Below, piece after piece: positions 17,081 through 60,061 of a DNA stretch of 64,000 nt. The number at the start of each line of letters is the position of its first letter. Position 1 is the stretch's first letter. A program made the translations under genes and the position numbers. The notes below the pieces were generated by a model. That model searched no databases. It was not told the origin of the DNA and saw nothing but the letters and a program-made list of their open reading frames with translations. This DNA comes from Chaetoderma sp. LZ-2023a (lineage: Eukaryota > Mollusca > Caudofoveata > Chaetodermatida > Chaetodermatidae): positions 59,622,369 to 59,686,368 of the forward strand of contig CM067370.1 of NCBI GenBank assembly GCA_034401795.1, read 5' to 3'.

Positions 17081-17557
17081 CTAGGTATTTAATCTAGTAA
17101 GTAATGCTGTATCTTGTGCTATTTCCAATGCATCTCTTAGGGCTTTACCAGCATTATGAGTTCGTAATTTGAACAACTGCTGATTATGATCGTGTGTCTG
17201 GCAGAAGAAACACAGTTCCTTACACAGTGGAATTGTCGAGGAATGTGTAAATACTGAAGTTGATGTCGATGCCTCATCAATAGCACTTTTCCTCTTTATC
17301 CCACGTTTCTTAGTAATGTAAGACCCACTAGATAGTGCATCCTCTATGCGATTTCGTGCATGTCGTATTTCTTCTTTGTTAGTGGCAGTAGAGTAACAAC
17401 TGCGATGCCAACCCGCTTTATGTGAAGATAGGTCACCATATGTGCAAAGTCTAAGTCTTTTCTGAATTTCAATGTATGAACCATCTTTCAATGTTGCTCT
17501 CTCTTCGACTGCTTGCAACAAATTGGTAAATGAGTCTATTCTTGGATGCTGCACCAT
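17081..17557 (-). pseudogene. N-terminal zinc-binding-like block of the transposon gene
   Basis: A 158-residue frame. Cysteine and histidine spacing such as LCTYGDLSSHKAGWHRSCY and LCKELCFFCQTHDHNQQLF matches the N-terminal double metal-binding region of the same family, where WHR.CY and LC..C.FC are conserved. It starts with ATG at 17557 and ends at a stop where family members read on. It is best seen as the 5' exon-like part of the same ancestral gene as the ORF at 14389-16332. Confidence 0.55.
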
Positions 17558-18075
17558 TGGTCCTTTAACAGTAGCATCTGTGGCATAAAATGCATAGCTT
17601 CCAGTTTGTTAACTCCGGTGTTGCATCAAGCTGTACATCGCTCGTGATTTACTCAAATTTGATGACAAAATATATTTGATCAATGCTTATTGCAAGATTA
17701 CAAACGATAATCCTGAAGATTATTGCTGTCTGATTATGCTTATTGCAAATCTATGAGCAGACGATCATTTGAACAACTTTTCTGCAAAAATTTGCTTTCA
17801 GTTTACTTTTACTGGTGAATTTGAAAATTACCCTGGACCATCCATTATTGTAAAATTGTGACACGCCGCTCACCATATACATACTCTGTCATAATATGTT
17901 TATTAATAAACATGATGACAATGTGATTACGTAGATAACAGGCCATTGGGCTATATCGTCATTCTATCCCCTCTATAGGATTACTATGGGCTACTGTTAC
18001 CATTAAATATTGTAACAAATATTGATTTAGAAAAAAGGTGCGACATTTGCAGAGTTTGTGTGAGAATTGCTTATT
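17558..18075. other. Transposon interior upstream of the coding block
   Basis: AT-rich, no frame of note. It should hold the promoter of the minus-strand transposon gene, but no clear TATA or initiator could be singled out. Confidence 0.35.
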
Positions 18076-22692: not shown

Positions 22693-23047
22693 TTTAAATC
22701 AGCAGGTGAAGGACTGGGCGGCAGACGAGAAGAGGCGCCTGGAAAAAGAGTGTGGTAAGAAAAGGAAGGCAGACATGGAGGCCTTCTCTTCTGTCTTGAA
22801 ATGATGGGAGAAATGAAGAAGACAATCACGGATCTTGTCCCGGAGTTGCTTTGCAGCTTGCTTCCCGCTTCAAGTTCGTCATTGTCTTCTTCATTTTCTC
22901 CGGGACAGTGTTCCCGTCTCTGGTTCTGGTTCTCTTAGTAAGCCAGTTTTCGCTATAGACACAGAGACGGCTCCTGTTGGTCCAGCGCTAAGGTTTGCCT
23001 CACCCGTGGACTCGTGAGTGAAAGCCATGGCCTCGGGCGCTCACTTA

Positions 23048-26000
23048 TCTGGTTTATCTGGCCCGCAGTTTTCTCATCAGTCACAACGTTCAAGAAGGGT
23101 AAGTTTTGCAAACCCAGTTTCTTCAGTCCATTTATTTTCTGATATTTCTGGTTCTGTTTTTGATCATGACTCATTGGCGTTTGAAGTTGCTAAGGACGAT
23201 ATTATTCGTGAAATCACCCTTATGAATTTGGATCCATCTCAGTTTCATATTTTCTATCATCATGATTCACTCAATCCCTTTATTTCAGCTAGAAAATCTT
23301 TGCTAGCTTTATTACTTTCAAGTGTTTTCTTTCCTCGTCAAGGCTCAACTGTTCCAGTTACATCAATCTCAGAAACACCTCAGACGATTCCTGATCCAGT
23401 GAATTCCATTCCCACGCCATCTCTTTATCCTTCCGATAATATTTCTTTTGACGATGAATCACTTCATGATGACCACGATAGATTCTGATCCTGGTCCGGA
23501 GGATTCATTTTCCATTTCATCCCCTCCTCTTATTTCAGATGGTTCCTCATATAATTCCCTATATCTTCTTTTCAGGGCCTCAAAACTCCAATTGGTATGA
23601 ATCTTTTCAATTCATTTCACAGTCTTGCAAAATTCCATTAGTTCGGGAGTCTTCCTCTCAACATTCTTTTGTTTCCCCATTGGTTCAACCAGTCGTTTCG
23701 GAATCTCAACCTCGCCTTCCTATGGATTCACTATCAATTGATATGCTGGATTTTTATTCAAAGGCTATAACTTCTGCTTCTCATGTTCGTTTGGTAGCCC
23801 CAGGGTCCCACAAAGTGTTACATTTATTCAAGGTTGACTTCGATAATGTTGGTTCAGTCCAAACCTTTTTGGGCCCGACCTCAGATCTTATTGGGTCTCG
23901 GATTCCTCAATCATCTTCCATTGCTGCTGGTCAGTCTGATCTGTGTAGCTTGGAAAAGGCTTTTCGGAATTTGTTCAAACTTTCTAATTTCCAATGTCTG
24001 TTAGCTGAGTCTCTCCTTAATTCATCTAGTTCTGATCTGGTCCTGGCCTCTATTTATAAGTCCTTGGCTGATTCAACAAGAGCGTCTCTTAATGCAATCG
24101 CTCATTCCTTGGCGTTTATTAATCACACTCGTAGGAAAGCTTTTGTCTTCTGCATCTCTATCCCGTAAACTAAAAAAACAGCTACTGTCTGCTCATCCAT
24201 TTGGTCACGATCTTTTTGGAACCTCAGCTCCTTCATTAATCCAAAAAGAATCTACTCAAAAGTCATTAGCTGATGCTATTATTCCTAATATCACATCCAA
24301 ACGTCGTTCAGATATTCCCTTTCGTACTTCTGATCATTCATCAGCTAAGAAGTCTAAGCCTTCCCAATCCTTTCCATCCAGGATTTTTGTTAATTCAAAT
24401 CGATCCCGATGCTCGAGTCCCTCCAGTCGTAGGTCTGCCTCAGATACCTCCAGTTCTCCGACTTCATCTCCTCCGACTCAGAAGAAATCATTGTCTTCAG
24501 TCTATGGCCAGTCCCATTTTGATAAAATAGTAGAAGCTCGTCCTTCTCCTCAGTCTTATAAGCCTTCCTCCGGCCGGTCTTCCTCATCATCCAATCGTGG
24601 GTCGTCTTCTCGAGGCAGAGGTCATCGTGGTTCATTCAAGAACTCTTATCAACAACGTTTTTGACGGTCCGGTCTCGCCACCCCCTTCTCTGCCGGTGGG
24701 TCTTCTATGTTCTCATCCCTCCATTCCTGTAGGGTCCCGCCTGAGTCACTTCTGGCATCAGTGGTCCCCCCTGTCTCGGGACAATCAGTGGATTATTTCG
24801 TTCCTTCGAGGCAGTTATTCTCCAGAATGGATTCAGGAGCCTCCTCCTTTATCTCTGATCCCAAAATGAACTCCCATTCCCAAAGACTCCTCCCAATTAG
24901 CAACCTTGGAAGAGGAGTTTCAGTCGTTAGTTCAAAAGAGGAGGTCCTGGATTGGTAAACCAATCCAGGGTATTATTCCACCGTGTTTCTAGTCACAAAG
25001 AAAACTGGGAGGTGGCGCCCCATCATCAATCTCAAAACACTCAACAAGTTCATATTGACTCATTCATTCAAAATGGAAACCATCCAGTCGGTGATTTGAT
25101 CCCTAGATATCGGTATGTGGACCTGCTCAATCGACCTGAAGGACGCTTACTTCCATATTCCAATGCACCCATCCTTCCGGCCATGTCTTCGTTTTGCCTA
25201 CAGAGACAAGGTGTGGCAGTTTCGTGCTCTTCCCTTTGGCCTTATGACTGCCCCATTTCTATTTACTCAAATAGTGTCTCTGGTGGCATCCTTTCTTCAT
25301 CGCCGGTCTATACACCTCTGTCTACATAGACGACTGGCTCCTCAAAGCGTCATCGGAATCAACTCTCAACCAGCAGTTAGTTTACATAATTCCCCTAATC
25401 ACCGACTTGGGCTGGATCATCAATCTAGAGAAATCCAGCGTCTCTCCTTCTCAACTTTTCAATCATCTCGGAGTTCGATTCAATCTAGTCCAAGGGAAAA
25501 TATTCCCTACCGTTTCCTTGCTGGAAGCTCTCCAGTTTGCGGTTTCGATTCTTGTCAATCAAAAGGAGGTATCAGCTCGCTTTTTTCTGAGACTCCTTGG
25601 TCTCATGGTGTCAGTCGAAAGAGTTATTCCTTGGGCAACATCCATAAGACGTCCTCTCCAACTCTATCTCATGTCCCTTTGGCACCAATCCAGGGATCCC
25701 CTGTATCAACTGATTCCGATTCATCCTCCTCTCCTGGAATTTCTTCCGTTTTGGCTAGACTCCAATTGTTTCTTGGTAGGCGTCCCTCTTCGGAAACCTC
25801 TTCCATCGGCAACTATTTTCACCGATGCCCCCCTAGACAGATGGGGAGCTCTTTGGGACTCCCGTCGCCTTTCAGGTCTTTGGTTCCATCAAGATTCTCT
25901 TCTTCATATCAATCTTCTGGAACTTTTAGCTGTTTTGAAAGCCCATCATTCTTGGGTTCATCTTCTTGTGAATCAGCACATTCTATTTCGATCAGACAAC

Positions 26001-26199
26001 ACAACGGTAGTGTCTTACCTCAACTGCCAGGGAGGTACCAAATTCCCGTCTCTGTGTGCCAGGTCCTTTCATCTTCTGATGTGGTGCCGAGATCACAACA
26101 TTTCCCTCTCAGCAGCTCATATCCCCGGCCGTCTGAACTTCATTGTCGATCAACTGTCCAGAGCAAACAAATCTGCGCACACAGAGTGACAACCTCAAA
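23048..26199 (+). pseudogene. Foreign DIRS block inside fossil A: gag-like region, RT and RNase H of a second lineage
   Basis: Up to about 23047 fossil A matches fossil B; from there to 26199 it does not, and matching to B resumes at CCTCTCAACAGGTTTA. The block has a T-rich, Ser-rich gag-like part (about 23060-24664), an RT with LKDAYFHIP and PFGLMTAPFLFT words (from about 25115) and RNase H with RSDNTTVVSYLNCQGG and AHIPGRLNFIVDQLSR (to 26189). It is more open than the backbone, with only a handful of interruptions. It has no terminal repeats of its own, so template switching between two DIRS RNAs fits better than simple insertion. Confidence 0.75.
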
Positions 26200-27290
26200 C
26201 CTCTCAACAGGTTTATCCTCACACCAAGTTTCAAAATGGAAACTGTAAGAATGGTGTTAGCAGGATTGAGGAAGGGAATGTGGACAGCATAAATAAATCT
26301 AAAAGATGCCTATTTTCGTATTCCCATTGCGAAGAGCTTTTGTCGGTTCCTGAGATTTGCATTCCAGGGCCGCCAATGGCAATTCGGTGTTCTCCCATTT
26401 GGTATATCGATGGCTCCACGGGTCTGGTGGTCCAATCTATGATGTCATACCTCCGCAGGAGACACATAGCAATCCACACATACATAGACAACTGGCTGTT
26501 AAAATCACACAATCAAGAAAGTCTGTCAGCAAATCTGGAGATAGTTTTGAAAACTCTTACAGATCTAGGCTGGATAATCAACTTTAAAAAATCAGAGCTG
26601 ACTACATCCCAGAAGTTTGTTTACCTGGGCATGTTCTTCGATCTAGAGGTAGGGTATGTTTACCCATCTCAGGAGAGAGTAGAAATACTCATCTCAGTCA
26701 TACAGTCAGTGTGCAACAGTCATCATGTCCTGGCACGGGTCTACTTGAGAATGTTGGGGTTACCACAGGCAGCCTTACGGTGGCGGCCGATCCAGTTATT
26801 TCTCATGACGCAGTGGACCCAGAGTACGGGTTTCCTGGACTCAAAGGTGTCAGTGTTAGAACCTCTTATTCACCACCTTCAATGGTGGATGAAGAGAGAG
26901 AATCTCCTGGCAGGGGTGACGTCATCTCCCCACCCTCAGTTAATGATGTACACAGATACATCAATGGAGGGATGGGGAGCTTGCCTGGAAGAAAACAAAG
27001 TATCAGGGCTTTGGAATTGGGATCAGTCACAAGAACATATCGATCTGCAGGAAAAGCGAGCAGTAGTCTTAGCCATGGAACACTTCCTAGAGACGGTCAA
27101 AGGAAAGAGTGTTCTGGTTCGATCAGACAATACAACAGTAGTGACTTGCATAAACTGCCAGGGCGGAATGAAGTTTGCCTAGTCTCTGTATGATGACATG
27201 GAAACTGCTTTGCTGGTGCCTAGATCATGGGATTTCCCTGAAAGCAGTTCATATTCCGGGAAGGCTAAATCTATTTAGCCGACTCATTGG
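26200..27290 (+). pseudogene. Backbone RT and RNase H of DIRS fossil A
   Basis: Parallel to 44925-46050 in fossil B and 49760-50760 in C. Recognisable words include the palm-domain region around WIINFKKSELT and FVYLGM, and RNase H with VLVRSDNTTVVT. It is broken by several interruptions. Confidence 0.8.
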
Positions 27291-27779
27291 GCCGTAGGAT
27301 GAGCATTCTTCCCACAGACTGGCAACTAAATCAATGTGTGATGGACTGTCTGTTCAACCACTGGGGCAAGCCCAACATAGATTTATTCGCAACGAACAAG
27401 AATGCGAAGATGACGACGTACTTTTCTCCGATTCCAGATGCGAGCGCTATCGCAATAGATGTGCTAGCTATCAGCTGGGAGGGAATGTATGCATACGCAT
27501 TTCCACCAGCAATCATGATTCCAAAAGTTCTCCAGAAAATCAGGCAGCAGGAATGCCAAGTGCTTCTGATCGGCCCAAATTGGCCAAGCCGATCATGATA
27601 TACGGATCTGCTGGACCTTCTGGTCTGCAATCCTGTTCCTCTGCTTCAGATGGATGACCTAATCTTCCAGGGCATGTTCCAATTGACTGTGTGGATGTTG
27701 TCAAGGAATCGGCAGTTAAGGAGGGCTTTTCTGAGCAAGCAGCCATGGTTATGGCTAAAGCCAGAAGGCGGTCAACCTC

Positions 27780-28640
27780 CAGAGCATATAATTATAAAAT
27801 CAACAGATTTGCTGAATGGTGCTAAAAAAGTTGCATTAATCCATTGGATGCATCTATTCAGGTAGTAGCCGATTTCCTCTGTCACCTTTTTTATGCCTAT
27901 AGCCTCAAGCCTAACTCTATTGCTGGCTACAAGTCAACTTTAATGTCAGTTATCCCTTGCTTGGCTAATAGGGGAAGTGATGCAGTATGTAATCTAAATA
28001 CTTTAATCAAAGGCATGGGTAATCTTAGACCAAGGAATCCACCAATGATTCCGTCTTGGAGTTTATCGTTAGTACTTCAAGTATTAGCGGATAAACCCTT
28101 TGAACCACTAAGCTCCATTTCCATGAAAATGTTGACACTTAAAACAGTTTTTCTGATTGCTGCAGCTTCAGCCAGATGAAGAAGTGAAATACATGCTTTG
28201 TCAGCAGAGCCAGAGCGTTTTGTGGTTACAGGGGAAGGCCTCAGGCTTCTATGTAGAGTTAACTTTATGGCGAAAAAACAGTCTTTAAAATATCCTGGTC
28301 AGCCTATTGTTTTACCTGCTTTGACTAGGTTTGATGCATTAACACGTTATAAACAACGTACAGGGGAATGGTGGGTGGACCGTAGTGCTTTATGGCTATC
28401 TTAAATTGAACCCCATGAGAGAGCTACTAAAGATACCATTTCGAGGTGGATTGTGGAATGCATCCAGCTGCCACGGGAAAACAAGTTGACATGGCCAAGG
28501 CTCATAGTGTCCATGGCGTAGTGGCATCCACGGCTCTGTTTAACGGAGTGCCGGTGGATGGCATTATGTCGGTAGCACAATGGCACTGTGAGTCTAGTTT
28601 TGCAGAACATTACCTCTGTGACACGTCTAATCTGCTTGCC
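27780..28640 (+). pseudogene. Tyrosine recombinase of DIRS fossil A
   Basis: Parallel copies occur in B (46560-47440) and C (51300-52233). Family words are PNSIAGYKSTLMSVIPCLA, SWSLSLVLQVLADKPFE and LKTVFLIAAASAR, the last being the region of the first catalytic arginine in DIRS-type recombinases. This enzyme inserts the circular DNA copy, which is why DIRS elements lack ordinary target duplications. Broken. Confidence 0.75.
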
Positions 28641-34215: not shown

Positions 34216-34236
34216 TGACGTAATCACATTACGTCA
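34216..34236. promoter_or_regulatory. Perfect palindrome of two CRE/ATF half sites
   Basis: Arms TGACGTAAT and ATTACGTCA face each other around a 3-base spacer CAC. Each arm is an ATF/CREB or C/EBP-ATF type site. It may be part of the promoter of the neighbouring hammerhead element or of fossil C; function is not shown. Confidence 0.4.
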
Positions 34237-34454
34237 CACCTGCATGATGTCATAAGGACGTCCCTAACATTACAAACTATCTAACGATTTTAACTTCATA
34301 ACATTAGTAGCAATTATACTTGGACGAACTATAAGAAAAATGGCACACAGCAATCTTAACACACGATAAAAACTTTATCATCTTAGCTACTATACAATGA
34401 TTTTCAAATATACACATCCCAGTAAAAACTACTGTGACAAAGTGTCTACACATT

Positions 34455-34505
34455 TCCTCTGATGAGTATAACCCAAACATGGGTACGAAACGCCAGGAGT
34501 CTGGA
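34455..34505 (+). ncRNA. Hammerhead-ribozyme-like motif, type I, all core bases present
   Basis: The core CTGATGAG (34459-34466) is followed by a stem II candidate ACCC/GGGT (34471-34474 with 34481-34484), then CGAAAC (34486-34491), a 7-base loop and GTC (34499-34501), the expected cleavage triplet. Stem III is only A-C with G-T, the very short form described for Penelope-like and retrozyme hammerheads. Stem I is limited to CCT/GGA-type pairing (TCC at 34455-34457 with GGA at 34503-34505) next to one mismatch. Activity, if any, may need a dimer. Confidence 0.6.
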
Positions 34506-34843
34506 TCAAATATGGAAAGGCCCACTAACAAATGGACCACTGCCACTATAACCTTTTACTAAAGATCTATCCCTTAAACCCAATGTATAAAACCATACAT
34601 TTCGGGTACGCATTTATTCCCAAACCGGGTACATTCGGGTACACGCACACTCTGGTACACCAATACACATTTAAAACAAACACTCGGGTACACAAAACTC
34701 GGGTACATAAAGAACACAGATTGTTACCAAATCGGGTACAACTACACATCAAGTCGGGTACAAAAACGACAACAACAATGGGATGTATCTACCAAATCCG
34801 GGTACATACACATGGGATCGGGTACAATCGGGTACAAGATTAC

Positions 34844-34856
34844 TATAAAAGGAGCG
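34844..34856 (+). promoter_or_regulatory. TATA box after the CGGGTACA array
   Basis: TATAAAAGGAGCG is identical in both element copies (second at 61833-61845), with conserved CATCCAGACTCAAC roughly 30 bases downstream, where a start site would be expected. Confidence 0.5.
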
Positions 34857-35019
34857 CGCAAACAGTGCATCGGCATCCAGACTCAACGGACACTAACCGT
34901 TAGCGTCAGGACAACATAGCATCTTACAAGCTTTTTACAAAAATATCTCTGTTTTTGTGTCCACCGGTTCCTGTTGTGGATATGGTTCACATATGGGATT
35001 TCTTTTTCTCCACCATTGC

Positions 35020-36200
35020 CCCATTTTTATACCCCGGCAAAAAATTTTGCGGGGTATTATGTAATGGCGCCATACATCCGGGCGGGCGGTCGGTCGAGAG
35101 TGCGTGCCGCAGAGTGGTTCCCGTATGATAACTCCATTACCCTTTGTCGGATCACATTGAAACTTCATACAGGGGTTGGACTAGGTCTTGGGAAGAAACC
35201 TATCCAAATCAACAGTGATCCAAAATCCAAGATGGCCACCAGCCACCGGTGGCCATCTTGAAAATCTATTTCTGAATGATAACTCCGTTACCGTGTATCG
35301 GATCTCTTTGATACTTCATGGAGTGGGTGGACTAGATCTGGGGAAGAAACCTATCGAAATTGACAATGATCCGAATCCAAGATGGCCGCCAGCCACTGGT
35401 GGCCATCTTGAAAATTTGTTTCCGGATGATAACTCAGTTACCATTTATCGGATCGCTTTGAAACATCATAGAGTGGTTGGACTAGGTCTGAGGCAGAACA
35501 CTATCGAAATTGACGATGATCAGAAATTCAAGATGGTGCCAACCACAGACAGCCATCTTGAAAATTGGTTTATCGGATCGTTTTGAAACTTCATAGAGTG
35601 GTTGGACTAGGTCTAAGGAAGAAAGCTATCGAAATCGACAATGATCCGAAATCCAAGATGGCCACCGGCCATCTTGAAAATTGGTTTCCAGATGATAAAT
35701 GTTATCGTTTATCGGATCGCTTTGAAACTTAATAGGGTGATTGGACTAGGTGTGGAGAAGAAACCTATCGAAATTGACAATGATCTGAAGTTCAAAATAT
35801 CCGCCATCCACCATTTTGAAAATTGGTTTCCCGATGATAACTCTGTTCCTGTTTATCAGATCACTTTGAAACTTCATAGGGTGGTTGGACTAGGTCTGGA
35901 GAAAAAACCTATCAAAATTGACGATGATCCGATCTCCAAGATGGGCGCCAGCCATGGGCTGCCATCTTGAAAGTTGGTTTCTGGATGATATCTCCGTTAC
36001 CATTTGTCGGATCACTTCCTAGGGTCGTTGGAATATGTCTAGTGAAGAAACTTTACGATAATCCAAAATCCAATATGGCCGCCAGTCAGCGCAGCCATCT
36101 TGAAAATTGGTTTCCGAACCATACATCCATGATCGTTTAACTGATCGCTTTGACACTTTATAAGGATGACTGGTCTGATGGGTCTGAGGAAGAAATAAAT
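35020..36200 (+). repeat. Hairpin-started tandem repeat (ATACCCC family) with paired YY1-type sites
   Basis: Starts with a hairpin (ATACCCCGGCAAAA / TTTTGCGGGGTAT), then a CGGGCGGGCGGTCGGTCG tract and about seven units of roughly 150 bp marked by GATAACTC near 35127, 35278, 35428, (35570), 35694, 35836 and 35987. Most units carry CAAGATGGCC facing GGCCATCTTG; at 35228-35260 the arms CAAGATGGCCACC and GGTGGCCATCTTG are perfect. A second copy of the family start is at 63864 onwards. Confidence 0.75.
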
Positions 36201-36631
36201 ATTTTCTGATAGCGCTTATTCATTGGTTTGTCATCATGGCGGGATATTATGCGCCATTTGCGGAGCTCTTGTTTATGTTAGAAAGCATCTATGCCCAGGA
36301 TGATTGGGAGCTCCCATAAGAGCGAGCTCTTCATTCTGCCCTGTGGTCCCAATAGTATTATGGTGGAGAGGCATGGCAGTGATGGTGGATTACTCAAGAG
36401 CCCTGGATATGGCAGTATGGCTATTCTAAAGATGCAGGTACTCTAGAGTTATGTAGAATGGCACTCTAATATATTTCAAAATTTTTAAAATATTTGCCAA
36501 TATTCTCTGTTTTCTCTGTTTTCTCTGATGGTTGGCATAGGATATTACTTTATTCATCACTAATGATTATGCTTTTGTGTGTTGAATACAATTCATCTTC
36601 ACACCTGGATGATGTTTTCTGTCGGATTGTT
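36201..36631. other. Spacer inside the intron of DIRS C
   Basis: No gene recognised; mixed composition with a TTCTCTG triple repeat near 36504-36528. Confidence 0.4.
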
Positions 36632-36859
36632 AGCTCACCTGGCCAGAATGGCCAAGTGAGCTTATGCCATGGCAACCGTCCATCGTCTGTCCATCCGTCT
36701 GTCCATCCATCCATCAACTTTTGCTTTAAAATGTATCTCCTATACCGCTTGGCAGATTTTAATCAAATTTGGCTAGAAGGATCCTATGAAGGTAGGCTCT
36801 AGAACCTCTAATCATATTTTTGATTCGTCAATTTTTTGGGTGAAAATCTTAGATTTTAT

Positions 36860-37580
36860 AAAAATTTACCGGAAAGTGTCAAAACACATCTCCTCCTTAG
36901 CTTTTTGACAGAATTCAGCCAAATTTGTCTTGAACGTTCCTATAGTGGTAGGTTCTAGATATTGTATTCAGATTTTTGATTCGTCAATCTTTTGGCTCAA
37001 AATCTTATATTTTGTAAAAAAAATGTACCGGAAAGTGTCGGAGTGTATCTCCTCCTTAACTTCTTGACAGATTTCAGCCAAATTTGTCTTGAAGGATCCT
37101 ATGGAGGTAGGCTCTGGAACCTGTATTCAAATTTTTGATTGGTCAATTTTTTTGGTTAAAATATTTGATTTTGTAAAAAATTTACTGGAAAGTGTCAAAA
37201 CGTATCTCCTCCTTAGCTTCTTGATAGATTTTAACTAAATTTGTGTGAAAGAATTCTACAGTGGTATGCTCTAGAATTTCTATTCAAAATTTTGACTTAA
37301 ATCTTTTGGGGTCAAAATCTGAGATTTTATAAAAAATTTACCGGAAAGTGTCACATGTCTCCTCCTTAGCTTCTTGACAGATTTCAACTAAGTTTGCCTG
37401 GAAGGATCCTGTAGTGGTGGGCTTTAGAACTCCTGTTTAGAATTTTGATTGGTCAATTTTGGGGGTGAAAATCTTAATTTTGTAAAAAAAACATGTTGCC
37501 AGAAATTGTCAAAATGCATCTCCTCCTTAGCTTCTTGACAGATTTCAACCAAATTTGCCTTTAAGGATTCTATAGAGGTA
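36860..37580 (+). repeat. 157-bp tandem repeat, about 5 units
   Basis: CGGAAAGTGTC recurs near 36870, 37030, 37187, 37342 and (changed) 37499, each followed by ATCTCCTCCTTAGCTTCTTG and AAGGATCCTAT. Confidence 0.8.
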
Positions 37581-37581
37581 G

Positions 37582-38590
37582 GCGTTAAACAAAAGTTATT
37601 GCTTTATATCTCATCAATTCTTGATCCAATTGGAACCAAACTTGGATAGATGGAGATATACATCGAAAGGAAGCAGCACGCTGATGCAGGCATCATGAGT
37701 TCAAGGTCATGGGGTCAAAGGTCACGGTATAATCTTTGTTAATATTTTACGTTAAGTTTTTGCGTTAAACAAAAGTTATTGTCTTATATCTCAACAATGC
37801 CTTATCCAATTGGAACCAAACTTGGGTACATGGTGATTTACATTTAACGGAAGCAGCATGCTGATGCAGACATCATGAGGTCAAAGTTATGGGGGTCAAA
37901 GGTCACGGTATAATCTTTGTTAATATTTTACGTTACGTTTTTGCGTTAAACAAAAGTTATTGTCTTATGTCTCAGCAATGCATGATCCAATTGGAACCAA
38001 ACTTGGATACATGGAGATATACATCGAAAGGAAGCAGCACACTGATGCAGGCATCATGAGTTCAAGGTCATGGGGTCAAAGGTCACTGTATAATCTTTGT
38101 TAATATTTTATGTTAAGTTTTTGCGTTAAACAAAAGTTATTGCCTTATATCTCAACAATGCCTTATCCAATTTGAACCAAACTTGGGTACATAGTGATTT
38201 ACATTTAACGGAAGCAGCCCATCACTAAACCGGTTATGATGTCAAGGTTATGGGGGTCAAAGGTCACAGTGTAATCTTTGTTAATATTTTCGTTGTGTTT
38301 TTGCATTAATCGAAAGTTATTGCCTTATATCTCAACAATGCCTGATCCAATTGGAACCAAACTTGGGTACATGGTGATATACATCAAAAGGAAGCAGCAT
38401 GCTAATGCCGACATCATGCAGTCAAGGTTATGGGGGTCAAAGGTCACGGTATAATCTTTGTTAATATTTTACTTTAAGTTTTTGCGTTAAACAAAAGTTA
38501 TTGTCTTATATCTCAGCAATGCCTGATCCAATTGGAACCAAACTTGGGTACATGGAGATATACATCGAAAGGAAGCAGCACGCTGATGCG
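37582..38590 (+). repeat. 181-bp tandem repeat with five perfect DR1 receptor sites
   Basis: GCGTTAAACAAAAGTTATTG starts units near 37582, 37762, 37943, 38123, 38303 and 38484. GGGGTCAAAGGTCA, the textbook HNF4/RXR direct repeat with one spacer base, occurs intact at 37711, 37892, 38072, 38253 and 38433. The spacing is 180-181 bp. The sixth unit is cut short. Confidence 0.85.
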
Positions 38591-41970: not shown

Positions 41971-42680
41971 GTGTACTTTAGTAAATTTATTGATACAAAA
42001 TGTGCGTGTTGACTCGGATGATATATCCGGGAGTCGCGCTAACTCGTGGATACGTTTATGTTAGGCTAGCGCTTTTTGAGGGAGGCCTATACATTAGCTA
42101 ATGCATGTTGTGCGTTGAAATTTCAGACACATTTAGCTGATTTCTGACAGTATCCTTTATTTGAACAATAATTTATACTTGGTTTTCTGGGTCCATATAA
42201 TTTATTATGAGTGCAGAGGGAATTATTACCATAAGAAGTAATTTTTCCGCATTCTCCCCCCCCCACCACCACAGGGTTTGGATTCAGGATCCGGTATTCC
42301 TGTTCATCAGACTTCACTCGTTCTTCAGGAGTTGTCCTCTGAGGTTTAGTATGGAGAGAGAAAATTTTCAGTCATTTTATTTCTAAAAATATTTGCATTG
42401 CGCAGGGCACTAGCACACATATATATGTTATTTATCTCTCTTGATGTTTTGCATAGGTTCATTGTGTTTATAAAGTTCAACTACTAATGAATCTTTTGTT
42501 TTGAGTGTGGAGTCTAGCATTCACCTCTCAAGTATTCAAGTTAAAATTCTAATTATTCCTATGTAATTCATGTAGGAGAATAAGAAGTTTTTAGGATTTG
42601 TTTACTTTTAGCCTTCTGCAATTGGGTTGTTTTGGTACGTCATAACTAAAAACTAATTGGTTCCGTTTGTCTCGTTTCAG
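41971..42680 (+). other. Candidate intron of DIRS fossil B
   Basis: Follows a 17-codon first exon (41920-41970) ending in Ser-His-Gln, with GTGTAC at the donor side and TCGTTTCAG at 42680. Both sides are phase 0. The downstream segment begins RIIENKSPSCHHFVKAR and carries further cysteine pairs (CTRCSTCG, CHVCE), so the acceptor restores a zinc-binding-like region. An (AC)- and poly-C-rich tract lies inside, as in fossil A. Confidence 0.6.
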
Positions 42681-43328
42681 AGGATCATTGAAAACAAAAG
42701 CCCTTCCTGCCACCATTTCGTGAAGGCCCGCTACCTCTCTCATGACTGCACTAGGTGCAGTACATGCGGGTCCTTACTAAATTGCCATGTATGTGAGTCG
42801 TGGCCGGTGGTGGTTTTCATTGATTTTATAATTCAGGAGGTAAAGGACCGGGCGGTGGATGAGAAAAGGCGACTTGGCAAAGAGTCATGTGGTAAGAAGA
42901 GGAAGGCATCCATGCCAGACATGGAGGCCTTCCGTGTTGAGATAATGGGAGAAATGAAGACAATCACGGATCTTGTCCCAGAGTTGCTTCGCAGCTTGCT
43001 TCCCGGCTCAAGTTCATCATTGTCTTCCTCATTTTCTCCAGGATGGAGTGTTCCCATCTCTGGGTCTGGTTCTGATAGGAAGCCAGTTTTCGTTATAGAC
43101 CCAGAGACAGCTCCTGCTGGTCTGGCGCTGAGGTTTTCCTTGCCCATGGACCCGGGAGCGAAAGCCATGGCCTCGAACGTTCGCTTATCGAATGTTCTCG
43201 AGCAGCCTATGGCTAAGGGTGTCAGCACCTTACGCGGTGCCCCTCCTGCCCAGGCCGAGCTTGATCCCTTTTTAAGCTTGGCATCTAATTTTTCTGGGGG
43301 AAGAAGAGGACACTGTTATGGCCGATGA
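42681..43328 (+). pseudogene. Gag-like region of DIRS fossil B, N-terminal part
   Basis: The longest open piece of the gag-like gene, about 216 codons after the acceptor. It has three cysteine pairs near its start, a basic stretch (KKRKASMPDM), then EIMGEMKTITDLVPELLRSL and a Ser-rich segment. The matching part of fossil A ends at its mosaic junction near 23047. Confidence 0.6.
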
Positions 43329-44924
43329 CCATGGAAATCATCCATCCGCCGCCCGCCCTCCCCCGAGGGCCCATGGGTGACCTTTTCCATGGAACTACTT
43401 CGGGGGTAGGTTTCACAGCGCAACGGCTAGGCCCGCTAGGAGCCGATAGCCATCCATACCGTGTCCCTCGACTTGCCGAGAGTTACCGTGAGGAAGGCCC
43501 GGACTATGACATCATGCATTTAGCCCCCCCATGATGCCGTAGATCCGGCTACTGGAGTAGCCACGGCACAAGCCATGCCAGCCCTTGCAGGTCCATATGG
43601 CTTCCCTGAGTATCCCCACCAGTGAATGTTGTTGAGGATGACGAAGACCCTAGGCTCATCGAACATTCACAGGTGGCCACCGAGGAGGAATGGCTGGATG
43701 CTTGCCAATGGTTGCTGAACATCAAGCCAGAACTCCCAAGTGGATCCACCATCTTCCCAGTGGGTCCAGCGGCCATGGTTGGGAGGGAAATCGGTGACGA
43801 GCACTGTGGCATCGCTGCGGCAGAGACGTACATTCAGCCGAATGGACGCCTTGCGAAGGCCCCTCGCGAGGGGGCACGGCGCTGCCATATCAGGTCTGAT
43901 CTGTATCAGGACGGTGTCATCCCAAAGCCTTGCATGGATGACCGTGCGGCTTTGGGCGAAGGCACTCGGCCTATGTCCCAGTCTGACACAGGACCCTTGT
44001 GTGCTAGTGCCCTGCGCAATGCGAATTTCGAGCTGCGGGACATGGAGGAAAGTACGAGGAGCCATCTCGGCCCTCGCACATTTCTCAGCTGCTACAGGGT
44101 GTAGTAGCAGCATCCGTGGCCCACCAAGCTTCTTCTCTTACAGTCCAGAGAGCCATCCAGGATGGCATTAGCCTGGCTCTGGACTGTATGATGAGATCCA
44201 TAACCAGGAGTTTACGGCGGAGGCACACATTTGCCCTTGACAATTTGTGCCCCTCGCAGGACCTGTACACTCGGCTTCTTGGGATGCCGATGGCAGGTCC
44301 AGGTTTGTTTGGAGGCGAAGGATGCCTGCACCCCCAACAAACTGTAAACCTGGTAAATAACCAGAGGGCGCTGCTCCGCAGCAGGCTAGAGGTGGTGGTG
44401 GCCCTGTCAGAGGCCAACCACCTACGCAACATCGGCTACGGCCACACCAGCGTAAGCCAGCTAGGGGAGTGGGGTTGGGAACGCAGGTTCCTCCAGCGCA
44501 ACCTGCCAAGCAACCCGCGTACCAAGGTGTGCGTGGCGCTGGCAGAGGAGTGCGAGGTTCTGGTCATGGGATGGGCCGGCTAGGACAGTCACCAGAGATA
44601 GGGCAACTCTTGCACTATTCGGGTCCACCTCAATCCTTAGGTGCACCCGTGGGAGGCCGTCTGGCCTGCCACATACAAGAGTGGGAGCAGATTACTCAGG
44701 ACCGCTCAGTCTGCCGATGGCTTTCAGTTGTTTACCATCCCTCTGAATATCAAGCCAGCCATCGCGCCTGTCTTTGGTTCCAATCTGGACTCAAAATCCA
44801 TGAGATCCAGATCAGGGGTTGTGTATAGAGGAAGAAATTCAATCCCTCATACAAAAACATGCAATTCAACCTGCACAGAAATGTCCGGGTTATTATCCAA
44901 CCATGTTCCTAGTGACAAAAAGCA

Positions 44925-46050
44925 CCTCTCAACAGGTTTATTCTCACACCAAGTTTCAAAATGAAACTGTAAGAACGGTATTAGCAGGATTGAGGAAGAG
45001 AATGTGGACAGCATCAACTGATCTAAAAGATGCTTATTTTCACATTCCCATTGCGAGGAGCTTTCGTCGGTTCCTGAGATTTGCATTTCGGGGCCGCCAA
45101 TGGGAATTCAGGGTTCTCCCATTTGGTATATCGATGGCTCCTCGGGTCTTCACTCGAGTGGTCTAAGCTATGACATCATACCGCCACAGGAGACATAGCA
45201 GTCTACACTTACATAGACGACTGGCTGTTAAAAGCACACAATCAGGAAAGTTTATCAGCAAATCTGGAGATAGTTTTGAAAACTCTTACAGATCTAGGCT
45301 TGATAATAAACTTAAAAAATCAGAGCTGACACCATCCCAGAAGTTTGTTTACCTGGGCATGTGCTTCGATCTAGAGATAGGATATATGATTACCCATCTC
45401 AGGAGAGGGTAGAAGTACTCATCTCGGTCATACAGTCAGTGTGCATCAGTCATCATGTCCTGGCACGGGTTTACTTGAGAATGCTGGGGTTGATGGTTTG
45501 TTTGGAACCAATCATTCCACAGGCAGCCTTACGCTGGCGGCCTATCCAGTTATTTCTCATGACACAGTGGACCCAGAGTACGGGATTCCTGGACTCAAAG
45601 GTGTCAGTGATGGAACCCCTTAATCACCACCTTCAATGGTGGATGAAAAGAGAGAATCTCCTGGTGGGGGTGATGTTGTCACCTCCCCACCCTCATTTAA
45701 CGATGTACACAGATGCATCAATGGAGGGATAAGGAGCTTGCCTGAAAGAAGACAAAGTATCAGGGCTTTGGAATCAGGATCAGTCAAAAGAACATATCAA
45801 TCTGCTAGAAATGCGAGCAGTATTCTTAGCCATGGAACACTTCCTAGAGAAGGTCAAGGGCAAGATTGTACTGGTTCGATCAGACAATACAACAGTAGTG
45901 ACTTACATAAACTGCCAAGGTCGAACAAAGTCACCCAGTCTTTATGATGACATGGAAACTGCTTTGCTGGTGCCTAGGTCATGGGATTTCCCTGAAAGCA
46001 GTTCATATTCCGGGAAGGCTAAATCTATTAGGAGACTCATTGAGCTGAAG
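44925..46050 (+). pseudogene. RT and RNase H of DIRS fossil B
   Basis: Words typical of DIRS reverse transcriptase (LKDAYFHIPIARSF, QWEFRVLPFGISMAPRVFTR) are followed by FVYLGM and then RNase H words (YTDASMEG, VLVRSDNTTVVTYINCQG). Broken by several interruptions. Confidence 0.8.
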
Positions 46051-46559
46051 AATGAGCATTCTTCCCATGGAATGGCGACTAAATCAATGTGTGGCGGACC
46101 GTCTGTTTAACCACTGGGGCAAGCCCAACATAGATTTATTTGCAACGAACAAGAATGTGAAGATGATGACGTACGTCTCCGATTCCAGATCCGAGCGCTG
46201 TCGCAATAGATGCCTTAGCTATCAGCTGGGAGGGAATGTATGCATATGCATTCCCGCCAGCAATCCTGATTCCAAAAGTTCTCCAGAAAATCAGGCAGCA
46301 GGAATGCAAGTGCTTCTGGTCAGCCCAAATTGGCCACGCCAATCATGGTATACGGATCTGCTGGACCTTCTGGTCTGCAATCCTGTTCCTCTGCCTCTGA
46401 TGGACAACATAATCTTCCAGGGCAAGGCCTTGCACAACAACCTGTCAATGTTCCAATTGACTGCGTGGATGCTGTGAAGTAATCAGCAGTTATGGAGGGC
46501 TTTTCTGAGCAAGCAGCCATGTTCATGGCAAAAGCCAGAAGGGGGTCAACCTCCAGAGC

Positions 46560-47440
46560 ATATAATTATAAAATCAACTGATTTGCTGAACGGTGCTCAA
46601 AAAGATGTATTAATCCAATGGATGCGTCTACTCAGGTAGTAGCCAATTTCCTCTGTCACCTTTTTGATGCCTATAGCCTCAAGCCTAACTCTATTGCTGG
46701 CTACAAGTCAGCTTTAATGTCAGTTATCCCTTGCTTGGCTAATAGGGGAAGTGATGACGTATGTAAACTAAATACTTTAATCAAAGGCATGGGCAATCGA
46801 AGACCAAGGAATCCGCCAGTGATTCCATCTTGGAGTTTATCGTTAGTACTTCAAGTATTAGCGGATACACCCTTTGAACCACTAAGCTCCATTTCCATGA
46901 AAATGTTGATGCTTAAAACAGTTTTTCTGATTGCTGCAGTGTCAGCCAGACAAAGAAGTGAAATACATGCTTTGTCAGCAAAGCCATACCATTTTGCGGT
47001 TACAGGGGAAGGCCTTAGGCTTCTACCTAGCGTTAACTTTATGGCGAAAAAACAGTCTTAAAATATCCTGGTCAGCCTATAGTTTTACAAGCTTTGACTA
47101 GCTTTGATCCTGATTCAAAGGCTTGGTGTCCTGTCCATGCATTAACACGTTATAAACAATGTACACACGAATGGCGGATGGACCCTAGTGCTTTATGGCT
47201 ATCTTACATTGAACCCCATGGGAGAGCTTCTAAAGATACCATTTCTAGGTGGATTATGGAATGCATCCAGCATTGCCACAAAGCCGTCATGGGATAACAA
47301 GTTGATATGGCCAAGGCTCACAGTGACAGGGCTCTGTTTAATGGAGGGCCAGTGGATGACATTATGTCGTTAGCTCAATGGCACTGTGAGTCTACTTTTA
47401 CAGATCATTACCTCCGTGACTCGTCAAATCCGCTTGTTTT
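46560..47440 (+). pseudogene. Tyrosine recombinase of DIRS fossil B
   Basis: Contains PNSIAGYKSALMSVIPCLA, SWSLSLVLQVLADTPFEPL and LKTVFLIAAVSARQRSEIHA, matching copies A and C. Broken. Confidence 0.75.
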
Positions 47441-49759
47441 ATCGATATAAACGTTAAATCTGTATATATTTGTAAATATTGTATATAATACCGTTGATTC
47501 ACACACAGTGCAATTTAGTGGGGGAATCCCCGCTTTTCCGTACTGTACCTATCATCACCAGTGGTGATTAAAGGGAATCTCGTGAAAATAGGTTAGTCCT
47601 ATATTTGCTGATGGTTATTTTTTGTCACAATTTTTATTACTTACTAAAATGGTCATGGTTTGTGTTCTTTGTGGTTCCATCAGAGAGTATACGAAATGAA
47701 GCTTTCATCTGATGTCTTATAGTACTTTAGCATGAGTACATAGAGAGTGTATAGGACATTGAGGTCATCGCTCCCTCTTTAAAAGAGAGGGGGATGTGAT
47801 CGAATGTTAAACGGTCATTACTCTCAACATCGGTCATGTTATCCGATGTCCAAGTCATTTCCTGATTGTGTTTACATATGCAATTCCAGATGTTTTTTGT
47901 GCTCCAGAAGCAAAAGAGCTTACTCTTCCAGGGATGAGCCGGTCTTCTGCCCTTCTCCCTCCCGCCGAATTTTCTTATGAGTTCTGGCTATATCATAGAG
48001 TATCAGGGTGGTAAGTATACTCTTGATGTGAAACAAATGAAACAGATTTCTTTTTTCACGAGAGAGTACTTACCACACTGATACGATCCCGGCCTCTCGG
48101 CCCACAGAGGCTCGGTCTATCGGCGTTTTATGTTGCAATTATGTCAGCCATTAATTTGGAACAGAAAGAGACAGCTCTGCACATGTGCAAGTTTGGGCCG
48201 CACATCCGCTGGACTGTCAGTTGAGTAACCTGCTCAGTGGGGGAGGTTCCTTTTTAATTCTGAGTCTTATTGAAGCTAGGTTGATATTTGGGAAATATCA
48301 TAAAGTATCAAGGTGGTAAGTATCAACTCTCTCGTGAAAAAAAAAGTCTGATTTCGTTTATTTCACCGGCTTAGTAGGAGTATCCATGGCTCCAGCCACA
48401 ATTACACCTGGGAGTGCTCTTGAGGACGATTAAGGCCCGCGCCTAGTCGAGCACTCGCAGGTGGCCACAGAGGAGGATTGGTCTGATTGTTATCAATGGC
48501 TGGTAAGCGTCAGACCAGAACTCAACGTGGAACCATCGGCTTCACAGCGGACCAGCGCCCGCGGTTGGTGGGGAAGCCGACGATGTCCGTCATGCCATAT
48601 CGTTGATATGGTTGCGGCGGCAGAGGCGTCCATTAAGCCTAATGGACCTCTCGTGAAGGCCCCTCGCAAGGTGGGAAGGTGATGTTGCATCGTAACTGGT
48701 CAATACCAGTAATACGGTGTGTTGCCGAAGCCGTGTGTTGGTGACCATGGTGCGCTAGGTAAGGACACGCGGCCGGGCTCCCGATCTGACACTGGAGCGC
48801 TGTGCATGAGCGTGCTGCGTAGTGCAAGCACCACGTTGCACGATGCAGATGAAAGCTCGAGAACGTCGATAGCGGCCCTCTCACACGTCTCTCAGCTGTT
48901 GCAAGGGGTAGTGACGTCACGGCCTCTATACCGTGCCAGACACGCCCCGTCTCAGTCCAGAGAGCCATCCAGGATGGAATAAACTTGGCTCTGGACTGCA
49001 TGACATGGTCTCTCAATAGAGGTGTCCAGGCAAGGCACACATTTGCATTGGACAATTTGTACCTGTCTCGGGACCTGTACAGTAGGCTGCTGTGAATGCC
49101 AATATCAGGTCCTGGTCTCTTTGGGGGTGAGGGATGTAAGCACCTCCAAGAAACAGTCACGCTAGTGAATAATCAGAGGGTGCTACGCGAACAGTTCGAG
49201 GTGCTCCGTAGAGAGCACGTTCGCGCGGCACCCTCTGTGTTCCATCCTTAGCAGGCCTGAGGTGGCCGTGGTCAGGTCAGAGGCCAGTCACCAGCACAGC
49301 GTAGGCAGCAGCCATGCCATCACCAGGTGGTGTGCGCAGGCTCTCCAGCACAGCCAGACAGCCGCTCAAGCACCGAGGTGCACACAGCCCAGGGCATGGC
49401 GCACGAGGATCTGGTCGTGGTAATCGTGCCTGATGGGACGGTTGCTATGGGGACCACTCCACTGCTACTAGAGCTAGAGACAGTGCCACTCTTGCATTGC
49501 TTATGTCCACTTCTCTCCCGAGGTGGACCCGTGGCAGGTCGTTTGATCTTTCACAAGCCAGAGTAGGAGCGGTTGACTCAGGACCGCTTAGTCTTGCGAT
49601 GGCTTTCAGTCGGATACCATCCCGACTGAATAATAGGCCTGCCATCGCATCTATCTCTTGTCCCGATCTGGACTCAAATTCCAAGAGATCCAGATCCACG
49701 GTTGTGTATCGAAGGTGAAATAAATTCCCTCAGACAAAAAGGAGCAATTCAACTGGTAA

Positions 49760-50760
49760 GTTCATAGACACACCGAGTTTCAAGATGGAAACAATCAAAA
49801 CCGTGTTGGTGGGGTTGGAGAAGGGAATGTGGACACCATCAATAGATCTGAAGGATGCTTATTTCCACATTCCAATTGTGAGGAGTTTTCATCAGTACCT
49901 GAGATTCACGTTTCAGGGCCGACAGTGGAAATTCAAGGTTCTTCCTTTTGAAAATTCCACGGTTCCTCGGGTCTTCAGCAGGGTGGTCCTTGCTATCACA
50001 GCATACCGCCGCAGGAGAAGCATAGCAGTCCACATAGATGACTGGCTGTTAAAAGCACACAATCAAGAAAGTCTATCAGCAAATCTGAAGATAGTTTTCA
50101 AAACTCTCGCAGACTTATGCTGGATAATCAACTTTCAGAAATCAGAGCTGACTCCATTCCAGAAGTTTGTTTACCTGGGCATGTTCTTCAATTTGGAGAT
50201 AGGATATGTTTATCCTACTCAGGAGAGAGTAGAAATACTCATCTCAGTAATACAGTCAGTGTGCAACAGTCGTCATGTACTGGCACGGGTTTACTTGAGA
50301 ATGCTGGGGTTGATAGTTTCTCTGGAACCAGTCATTCCACAGACAGCCTTATGCAGGCGGCCAACCTCCAATGGTGGATGAAGAGCGAGAATCTGGTGGT
50401 CATAATGCTCACCGCTCCCCACCCTCAAATGACGATGCGTCAATGGAGGGATGGAGAGCTTACCTGGAAGAAGCCACAGTATCAGGGCTTTGGAATCTGG
50501 ATCAGTCACAAGAACATATCAACCTACTGGAACTACGGGCAGTAATTCTAGGCCTGGAACATTTCTTGGAAAAAGTACACAGCAAGATAGTTCTAGTTCG
50601 ATCAGACAATTAATCAGTAGTGACTTACATAAACCGCCAGGTTGGAACGAAGTCTCCCAGTCTCTGTATGATGACATGGAAATTCCTTTGCTGGTGCCTA
50701 CATCACTTGATCACCTTGAAAGCAGTTCATATTCCGGGAAGGTTAAATCTGCTAGCAGAC
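49760..50760 (+). pseudogene. RT and RNase H of DIRS fossil C
   Basis: Open for 198 codons (49785-50381) with SIDLKDAYFHIPIVRSF, HIDDWLLKAHNQES and WIINFQKSEL, then RNase H words near 50440-50760 (HIPGRLNLLADSLSR). More diverged than A and B. Broken. Confidence 0.8.
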
Positions 50761-51299
50761 TCATTGAGCCGAAGGATGAGTGTTTTACCTACGGAATGGC
50801 AACTAAATCAATGTGGTGCGGATCGTCTGTTCAACCACTGGGGAAAACCCAACATAGATTTATTCGCAACAAAGAAGAATGTAAAGATGACAACGTACGT
50901 CTCTCCGATTCCAGATCCGAGTGCTATCGCAACGGATGCGCTAGCTATCAGCTGGGAGGGAATGTATGCATACGCATACCCGTCAGCAATCCCAATTCCA
51001 AAATTCTTCAGAAAATGAGACAGGAGTGCAAAGTGCTTCTGATCGCCACGAATTGTTCAAGCTGATCATGGTATACGTATCTGCTGGACCTTCTGGTCTG
51101 CAATCCGGTTCCTCTGCCTTTGATGGACAACATAATCTTCCAGGGCAAGTCCCTCCACAACAGTCCGTCAATGTTCAAATTGACTGCATGGATGTTGTCA
51201 AGGAATCCGCAATTAAGGAGGGCTTTTCTGAGCAAGCAGCCATGTTTCTGGCAAAAGCCAGATGGGTGAGGGGGGGGGGGGTGGTCAACCTCCAGAGCA

Positions 51300-52233
51300 T
51301 ATAATTATAAAATCAACGAATTTGCAGAATGGTGCTCAAAGAGATGTATTAATCCAATGGATTCATCTGTTCAGGTAGTAGCCGATTTCCTCTGTCACCT
51401 GTATGACACCTACATCCATAAGCCTAATTCTGTTGCTGGATACAAGTCAGCTTTAATGTCTGTTATCCCTTGCTTGGCTAATAGGGGAAGTGATGAAGTA
51501 GGTAGTTTAAATACTTTGATTAAAGGCATTGGTAATCTAAGACGCAGAAATCCATCAGCGATTCCGTCTTGGAGTTTATGAAGTGCTTCAAGTTCTAGCT
51601 GATAAACCCTTTGAACTGCTACGTTCCATTTCAATGAAATTGTTGAGACTTAAAACTGTATTTTTAATTGCTGCAGCCTCAGCAAGGCGGAGAAGCAAAA
51701 TTCATGCCTTATCCGCCGAAGCAGACTGTTACGTGGTTATAGGGGAAGTCATTTGGCTCCTACCTAGGATTAATTTCATGGCTAAAAATCAGTCATTGAA
51801 ATACACAGGTCAACCTATAATTTTATCAGCTTTGAATAGATATGATCCTACTTCAAAAGCTTGGTGTCCAGTCTGCACATTAAATCAGTAAAACAATGTA
51901 CAACTTACATTGGCGTACTGCTAGCGTACAGCGTAGTGGCAGACGGATGCTACTTCATTATTGTTGTTGTATATTGAACCCCGTGGCAGGGCATCCAAAG
52001 ATACCATTTCGATGTGGATTGTGGAATGCATTCAGTTTTGCCACAAATCCACCACTGGTAAACATGTTGACATGACAAAGGCTCATAGTGTCCATGGTGT
52101 AGTGGCATCCACCACCCTGTTTAATGGGTTACCAGTGGATGACATTATGTCGGTAGCCCAATGGCAAGAGTCAAGTTTTACCGACCATTATCTTCATGAC
52201 ACCACTAATCCTCTCACCTTATCGATTTTGTAA
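51300..52233 (+). pseudogene. Tyrosine recombinase of DIRS fossil C
   Basis: Words PNSVAGYKSALMSVIPCLA, LKTVFLIAAASARRRSKIHA and MSVAQWQESSFTDHYLHDT follow the order seen in A and B. Broken. Confidence 0.75.
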
Positions 52234-57800: not shown

Positions 57801-57952
57801 TTAGTTTTATGTGTTTTTGGGTATTCTGATCTCAAATTTGCAATTTTCGAAACTGTCGGATAAATGGTACGGTGGCCATCTTGTTGATAAAGAGCATTCT
57901 AGTTGAAAAACCTATGGTCCAGGTGAGCAATACAGGCCCCTTGGGCCTCTTG
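54807..57952 (+). mobile_element. Hairpin-capped element (AGCTCACC family) with about 605-bp tandem units
   Basis: 5' hairpin AGCTCACCTGGCC / GGCCAAGTGAGCTT at 54807; 3' end TCCAGGTGAGCAATACAGGC then GGGCCTCTTG at 57952. AACTGTCGGATAAA recurs near 55428, 56037, 56636, 57241 and 57850, giving units of 599-614 bp. Each unit carries GCCATCTTGGAT words, ACTGGGCCAATTTCA and CTGAAGGGATCGGGCC. Short frames within (such as 56055-56240 and 56654-56839) are repeat shadows. Confidence 0.8.
56020..57200 (+). repeat. Nearly identical pair of 599-bp units
   Basis: The unit at about 56030 and its neighbour 599 bases later differ at only a few positions, while outer units are clearly more diverged. This points to a recent local duplication or gene conversion. 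Confidence 0.8.
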
Positions 57953-59917: not shown

Positions 59918-60061
59918 GTAAGCTCTATTCAAGCTTGAGGTTAGTTCTAGTTAGTTAGGGCTAAATACAAAATTATGTTAATGTGTGGATGTGTATTTGA
60001 AAACATAAATCTGCTTGCCAGTACTTCAAAAACACATATGTACACAGTATATGCTAAGGTC
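59918..60061. other. Intron DNA after exon c
   Basis: Short unique stretch leading into MITE copy 3. Confidence 0.5.

Follow-up and report, generated by a model that had tools for sequence, protein, structure and literature searches.

What kind of element brings together, on one short unit, a hammerhead-like ribozyme core, a row of CGGGTACA boxes and a TATA box, and what could a ribozyme do upstream of a promoter? The question arises from a window of 64,000 nucleotides of Chaetoderma sp. LZ-2023a, the whole stretch of DNA analysed here, in which an earlier note had placed such an element at 34440-34930 and had seen the same order of parts recur 27 kb away. The window holds two related copies of the unit about 27 kb apart, copy 1 at 34433-34944 and copy 2 at about 61317-61933, both on the plus strand (Table 1), and in both a hammerhead-like block is followed by the CGGGTACA array and then by the TATA block. 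The recurrence is borne out on the same strand: with +1/-1 scoring in blastn, the block round the hammerhead words (62 bp, 79% identity) aligns at E 4e-11 and the box array together with the TATA block at E 7e-28 (66% overall), while from the TATA box onward the copies are 80% identical over 105 aligned positions (E 7e-18). The place given for copy 1 is right, except that its start falls inside the 5' hairpin and its end omits the last ~15 bp of similarity. Outside the unit, no similarity between the copies was found at E up to 0.01 (34300-35060 against 61200-62200). A model built from the two 69-nt hammerhead-like blocks (R1) scores copy 1 at 95.0 bits and copy 2 at 94.5 bits, matches that follow from its construction; its next best score is 12.5 bits, and no third copy was found in the window. 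The comparison is thus one of two sequences only.

Table 1. Features of the two copies, in window coordinates
Feature	Position	Strand	Basis or detail
Copy 1, imperfect hairpin TGTGACA / TGTC-TA-CACA just 5' of the hammerhead-like block	34433-34452	+	sequence; predicted fold of 34432-34520
Copy 1, hammerhead-like three-helix RNA block	34452-34520	+	shared fold; R1 match by construction
Copy 1, CTGATGA	34459-34465		
Copy 1, stem II	34466-34486		
Copy 1, GAAA	34487-34490		
Copy 1, stem III CCAG/CTGG	34493-34504		
Copy 1, candidate cut	after 34507 or after 34501		AUC register or GUC register, respectively
Copy 1, box array	34603-34836	+	nine CGGGTACA, one CGGGTACG, one CTGGTACA
Copy 1, TATA box, initiator-like site and conserved downstream block	34844-34944	+	TATA box 34844-34850; initiator-like GCATCC (A at 34875)
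Copy 2, 5' flanking repeat, candidate target-site duplication	61299-61316	.	exact 18-bp match
Copy 2, perfect palindrome ATATTCTGA-C-TCAGAATAT near the 5' end of the unit	61329-61347	+	19 bp
Copy 2, hammerhead-like block	61350-61418	+	CTGATGA 61357-61363; stem II 61364-61384
Copy 2, box array	61670-61814	+	four CGGGTACA, two CGGGTATA, two CAGGTACA
Copy 2, TATA box, initiator-like site and conserved downstream block	61833-61936	+	initiator-like ACATCC (A at 61864); block runs to AAGCTTTAAAGAAA
Copy 2, 3' flanking repeat (18 bp)	61934-61951	.	exact match to the 5' repeat

Does the hammerhead-like block encode a structured RNA? The words that suggested a ribozyme lie in copy 1 where they had been noted, with CTGATGAG at 34459, CGAAAC at 34486, GTC at 34499 and TATAAAAGGAGCG at 34844. 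The type I hammerhead of Schistosoma has the word order CTGATGAG ... CGAAACGC ... GTC ... TGGAT; the order here is the same, with the difference that the GUC register sets a U-U beside the core in stem I. The scan patterns and the box set were picked after the sequence had been seen, and it is in this light that the pattern CTGATGAGN{8,30}CGAAAC is expected 0.01 times in the window and CGGGTACA 0.47 times, against 14 occurrences of the latter, a number reached by 0 of 100 shuffles.

The 69-nt blocks of the two copies align without gaps, and in each of them stem II is a 21-nt hairpin between CTGATGA and GAAAC, in which a 3-nt bulge separates two pairs from the five that close an AACA loop. The copies differ at eight of the 21 hairpin positions, six of these being paired, and three pairs have changed on both sides while none of the seven is broken. 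This number of shared pairs is equalled by 2 of 5000 column shuffles. Random substitution of eight stem II positions leaves all pairs intact in 10,850 of 2,000,000 trials, and 1,005 of the 2,000,000 combine intact pairs with three or more double changes; if the same eight positions are kept and only the new bases are random, all pairs survive in 8.8% of trials. The consensus fold of the whole block comprises 17 pairs; four of them have changed on both sides and none is broken. In a control that counts pairs, 26 of 500 shuffles reach the observed value, close to the lowest fraction attainable when four pairs change between two rows. Measured against column shuffles, in which dinucleotides are not kept, the consensus fold has a z of -5.6 on the plus strand (reached by 0 of 1000 shuffles) and of -1.7 on the minus strand (60 of 1000), and the TATA-block stretch, folded as a control, has a z of -1.3 (117 of 1000). 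With the core held unpaired and its columns fixed, z is -7.1 (0 of 1000), and the consensus consists of UUCC/GGAA, the stem II hairpin and CCAG/CUGG, three helices that follow the order of a type I hammerhead and are joined by the junction strands U-CUGAUGA, GAAACG, and AUCA plus five bases. Folded singly, the sequences are no more stable than their shuffles, with z values of -0.22 and -1.82 in the longer blocks and of -0.36 and 0.19 in the 62-nt stretches, so that the structural evidence lies in the sharing of pairs and not in stability. We conclude from these models that the 62-bp block encodes a predicted RNA structure common to both copies. Chance hammerhead words were rejected as an explanation of the block on the strength of this shared, strand-specific fold.

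Is the shared structure that of a hammerhead? In copy 1 the type I core (C3 U4 G5 A6 N7 G8 A9, G12 A13 A14, A15.1, U16.1, H17) is complete in two registers, GUC and AUC. The core of copy 2 fails at G12, where the copy reads CAAAAC in place of CGAAAC and thus carries an A; since G12 is the general base, as stated in an excerpt of PMC6155905, the candidate ribozyme of copy 2 is probably inactive, judging by its sequence. The note's impression that boxes, TATA box and ribozyme words look conserved holds for the boxes and the TATA box, and not for the CGAAAC word. In the AUC register the pairs 10.1-11.1, 1.1-2.1 and 15.1-16.1 all form and stem III has 4 bp, but stem I then contains a 5-nt bulge, and stem III a CG/A internal loop. 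The GUC register has a U-U at 1.1/2.1 beside the core in both copies and a stem III of two pairs, and stem II is the sole helix changed on both sides that it uses. A hammerhead filter described in an excerpt of PMC3088659 requires the core residues and the same three pairs, and rejects a U-U mismatch next to the core; the bulge and the internal loop of the AUC register may lead it to reject that register too. A reference title cited in the available part of PMC6155905 mentions the lack of AUC in most natural hammerheads, and the exact pairings of copy 1 have poor energies of -1.7 (AUC) and -4.3 (GUC), both far from -14.3 kcal/mol, with GUC rated above AUC; without the isolated core-adjacent pairs, the shared helices of copy 1 have -13.2 kcal/mol. 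Because the AUC register uses all three shared helices, the modelled folds are suggestive in its favour. Of the original hammerhead reading, a hammerhead-like RNA in two copies has stood, whereas the shared fold, with its 4-bp stem III, points to an AUC register rather than to the GUC register with a very short stem III.

The covariance-model check proposed in the note went against both copies: Rfam hammerhead families match nowhere in the window at gathering score, and neither copy at E up to 10. Copy 1 has a weak Rfam match to SNORD50, whose 13.8 bits fall well short of the gathering score, 42. Moreover, the unconstrained lowest-energy consensus pairs U4-U7 of the core (UGAU) with AUCA, for which reason an inactive relic stays a candidate reading. 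More broadly, the block could be a conserved three-way-junction RNA other than a working hammerhead, either such a relic or another RNA, for example a C/D snoRNA, a proposal consistent with the Rfam results and with the fact that copy 2, which lacks G12, still keeps the shared helices. We consider it unlikely, given that the consensus with the core forced open is nearly as good as the unconstrained one (-14.45 against -15.55) and has the better z, and that CUGAUGA, GAAA and UC occupy the three junction strands in hammerhead order. The D box motif of C/D snoRNAs is CUGA; none lies near the 3' strand, the internal helices are strong, and a box C/D snoRNA, raised by the SNORD50 match, was rejected because of the missing D box. 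Dimeric, double-hammerhead action through a palindromic stem III loop found no support, as 36% of random loops equal the loop of copy 1 in self-pairing, and 16% equal that of copy 2.

How are the boxes arranged? Thirteen of the 14 CGGGTACA occurrences fall in the two arrays, all on the plus strand. Allowing at most one mismatch gives 11 boxes in copy 1 and eight in copy 2, 19 in all and in one orientation, and between ribozyme block and TATA box neither copy has a box on the minus strand. The ten CGGGTAC boxes counted earlier in copy 1 are found as nine CGGGTACA and one CGGGTACG, to which one CTGGTACA is added. When positions are counted from the TATA box without gaps, four of the eight boxes in copy 2 fall no more than 1 bp from one in copy 1 (p 0.009), and the four box pairs at these shared positions agree in 29 of 32 bases, against 39 of 109 in the adjoining ungapped spacers, in keeping with the strong divergence between boxes that had been remarked on. 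Anchored at the TATA box, the 19 boxes suggest a helical phase with a period of about 10.7 bp (the best within 10-11 bp; R 0.69), with p 0.0006 under random placement and p 0.025 when boxes that follow each other at 10 bp are placed together as blocks; unanchored, the corresponding values are 0.0046 and 0.077. For the pooled boxes, period ranges outside 10-11 bp score lower, whereas the 11 boxes of copy 1 alone place periods near 8.1 and 16.3 bp slightly above 10.8. In view of these periods and of the block-kept p values the helical phase is not firm, and a setting of the boxes in helical phase from the TATA box is suggestive.

A decayed minisatellite in front of an ordinary TATA box, with hammerhead words present by chance, would account for several boxes standing 10 bp apart in tandem-like fashion, where Tandem Repeats Finder also reports short arrays, and for the p values of 0.025 (anchored) and 0.077 (unanchored) once runs are treated as blocks. 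It would account neither for helices common to the copies with changes on both sides, nor for box positions shared relative to the TATA box, nor for boxes at those positions that are kept while their spacers are not, and we regard it as very improbable. The related suggestion of a random microsatellite, named in the note as what would undo its proposal, is disfavoured by the single orientation of 19 of 19 boxes, the four of eight shared positions, the same contrast between boxes and spacers, and the suggestive helical phase. We know of no factor for CGGGTACA, and a literature search on GGGTACA, TATA box and transposable element returned nothing relevant among the matches listed.

Where does the unit begin and end? 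Copy 2 is flanked on both sides by AATTCATCTTTTAATTTA, an exact 18-bp repeat that occurs just twice in the window. In 2000 shuffled pairs of copy 2 flanks the longest common word is 13, although 18-mers recurring 300-1000 bp apart are not rare, with 1114 such pairs window-wide and 45 outside tandem arrays. The unit between the repeats measures 617 bp and runs CATCTT...AAGAAA. Its palindrome, which starts 12 bp inside the 5' end, is one of seven perfect palindromes in the window with arms of at least 9 and a spacer of up to 3. The imperfect hairpin of copy 1 lies at about the same place, with a different pairing chosen when 40 nt are folded. Copy 1 has no flanking repeat, the longest word common to its flanks being 6. 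Two further inverted sequences lie outside the units: a palindrome TGACGTAAT-CAC-ATTACGTCA at 34216-34236, about 200 bp upstream of copy 1, and an inverted repeat of about 95 bp (76%) at 61208-61302, in the 5' flank of copy 2.

These boundaries bear on the kind of element involved. The LTRs of LTR retrotransposons have TG...CA ends and a target duplication of 4-6 bp; the ends of the copy 2 unit and its 18-bp duplication do not fit, and a classical LTR was rejected. Nor do the copies appear to be the two LTRs of one 27-kb element, being only about 66% identical over the array with compared flanks that differ. A third candidate, in which copy 2 is part of an apparently surrounding retroelement, was dismissed on the ground that copy 1 is without those flanks.

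Our preferred explanation, which we hold with about as much belief as doubt, is that each copy is a terminal-repeat unit of about 500-620 bp from a hammerhead-bearing retroelement, most likely the solo pLTR of a Penelope-like element. Here and below, published systems are compared as excerpts of the cited reports describe them. Hammerheads have been reported in pLTRs (PMC7761336, PMC11167929), and the minimal type I hammerheads of Penelope-like pLTRs (PMC11167929, PMC7761336, PMC3846280) resemble our case in placing a hammerhead-like RNA in the repeat unit. Rotifer pLTRs have a TATA box with an initiator, 5' palindromes and solo copies (PMC3846280), and a TATA box and initiator in a pLTR are thus already described; the units here resemble them in the TATA box with an initiator-like site, and copy 2 also in a 5' palindrome and a flanking duplication, while solo units such as the two copies would be exist there too. 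The TATA box and initiator-like site are found in both copies, and the perfect palindrome and the 18-bp repeat in copy 2 only. There are also differences. The shared fold has a stem III unlike the minimal pLTR hammerheads, a row of boxes precedes the TATA box and no Penelope-like protein was found nearby; the copy 2 repeat is longer, at 18 bp, than the 8-10 bp duplications of rotifer Penelope elements (PMC3846280); and the ribozyme stands upstream of the promoter, whereas the Anolis Penelope-like element carries it where the ORF begins (PMC11167929). Pfam, in a partial search, recognised neither a GIY-YIG domain nor a Penelope-type reverse transcriptase among 16 distinct frames (13 of the 51 in one frame list and three more, given as 17 stretches); a solo unit would not carry the protein in any event.

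What would the ribozyme do in such a unit? In both copies an initiator-like CATCC follows 31 nt after the first T of TATAAAAGGAGCG, with the same spacing, and the similarity between the copies persists to about CAAGCTTT. The hammerhead core lies upstream of the TATA box, its start being 385 bp away in copy 1 and 476 bp away in copy 2. The transcript of a unit's own promoter therefore cannot contain the ribozyme, which could act only in RNA coming from an upstream unit; this is the logic of a terminal repeat, and it fits a Penelope-like pLTR best. From this arrangement we infer transcription, cleavage and the parent element in the following model. A host factor would bind the successive CGGGTACA boxes, for the most part along the same side of the double helix, and would thereby direct RNA polymerase II to start some 31 nt beyond the first T of the TATA box. 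Where units follow one another, as pLTR-body-pLTR or in tandem, the ribozyme would act in RNA reading in from the upstream unit, and its cleavage would detach that RNA from the promoter unit that comes next. The role of minimal hammerheads in Penelope-like elements has been called still a mystery (PMC7761336, in the part available). With ribozyme-like RNA, box array and TATA box conserved together, the separation of readthrough RNA from the next promoter by the ribozyme becomes a testable model, and the boxes offer a handle on the host factor that turns the element on. Only tentatively, and with more doubt than belief, do we go further and propose a family of ribozyme-bearing retroelements with its own polymerase II promoter and a near-identical box array lying mostly on one helix face, in which a type I hammerhead upstream of the promoter, non-canonical in its AUC cut site, its bulged stem I and its real stem III, would cut only the neighbour's RNA.

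It is conceivable that the units belong instead to a non-autonomous, retrozyme-like element, with a monomer of about 600 bp and its own polymerase II promoter, that moves via RNA circles made from transcribed and cut tandem units. Metazoan non-LTR retrozymes, known from a mussel among other animals, are likewise short units with type I hammerhead-like RNA and without a long open frame, and their flanking duplications, when present, exceed 4 bp (PMC7229834), as does that of copy 2, which looks like a complete unit between its two 18-bp repeats. Those retrozymes are arranged in tandem, however, and give RNAs of ~170-400 nt (PMC7229834), whereas the unit here is longer, at about 600 bp, carries a TATA promoter and a box array, and occurs in the window as two single copies 27 kb apart, neither of them in tandem. 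Retrozymes do not seem to harbour promoters according to the excerpt of PMC7761336, although the LTR promoter of a plant retrozyme has been mapped (PMC12029980). Plant LTR retrozymes such as NbRZ1 combine hammerhead and promoter in one terminal repeat, as here, but their hammerheads are of type III, they show LTR features with duplications of 4 bp, and their ribozyme lies within the promoter's own transcript, unlike here (PMC12029980). On balance, a retrozyme-like element seems to us a rather doubtful account of the two copies.

The individual pieces of the unit are known, and their combination, with the details of the fold, is absent from the reports compared, in the parts available, which does not establish its absence from print. 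Literature searches found no report of a retrozyme with a promoter and a TATA box; the combination is not described in the titles and abstract starts retrieved for hammerhead with oyster, or with dimers and stem III, nor among the matches listed for Penelope, mollusc and hammerhead and for Penelope-like hammerhead pLTRs. In sequence collections, the TATA pattern had no match in viral_contigs and its downstream part none in genome_contigs; the hammerhead-word pattern had none in viral_contigs, and blastn against phages gave no match. These collections are nearly without animal DNA, so that such misses say little. A looser hammerhead-word pattern matched six bacterial contigs and the box pattern two viral contigs. 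R1, run with default filters and E up to 10, gives a score to none of these eight, and the bacterial six contain no Rfam hammerhead at gathering score, for which reason we take them all as chance matches.

The window has a eukaryotic look, with split coding regions and retroelements, and its repeats resemble those of molluscs. Copy 2 sits, in sense orientation, between two stretches with Pfam ABC_membrane matches (positions 117-168 of the domain within 59749-59955, and 160-234 within 62942-63199), whose best solved relatives are headed by ABCB9 and include ABCB10; the two stretches look like successive exons of an ABCB-type transporter gene. The frames just upstream of copy 2, which have no Pfam match, resemble the C-terminus of a LINE reverse transcriptase, and a (TAT)n run follows downstream at 62119-62150; with LINE-like frames on one side and this run on the other, copy 2 may have landed in the 3' end of a LINE. 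Two open frames on the minus strand, of 650 aa at 14389-16341 and 175 aa at 17081-17608, are without a Pfam match. Tandem repeats in long arrays, with unit lengths near 150, 156-159, 180 and 600 bp, extend over 35117-38589 and 54840-58344. Finally, three related retroelement copies lie at 23018-28522, 42657-47325 and 49719-52090; of their frames, two that were tested have RVT_1 in Pfam, one of them just under the cut-off, and one has a sub-threshold RVT_3, and these frames look DIRS-like.
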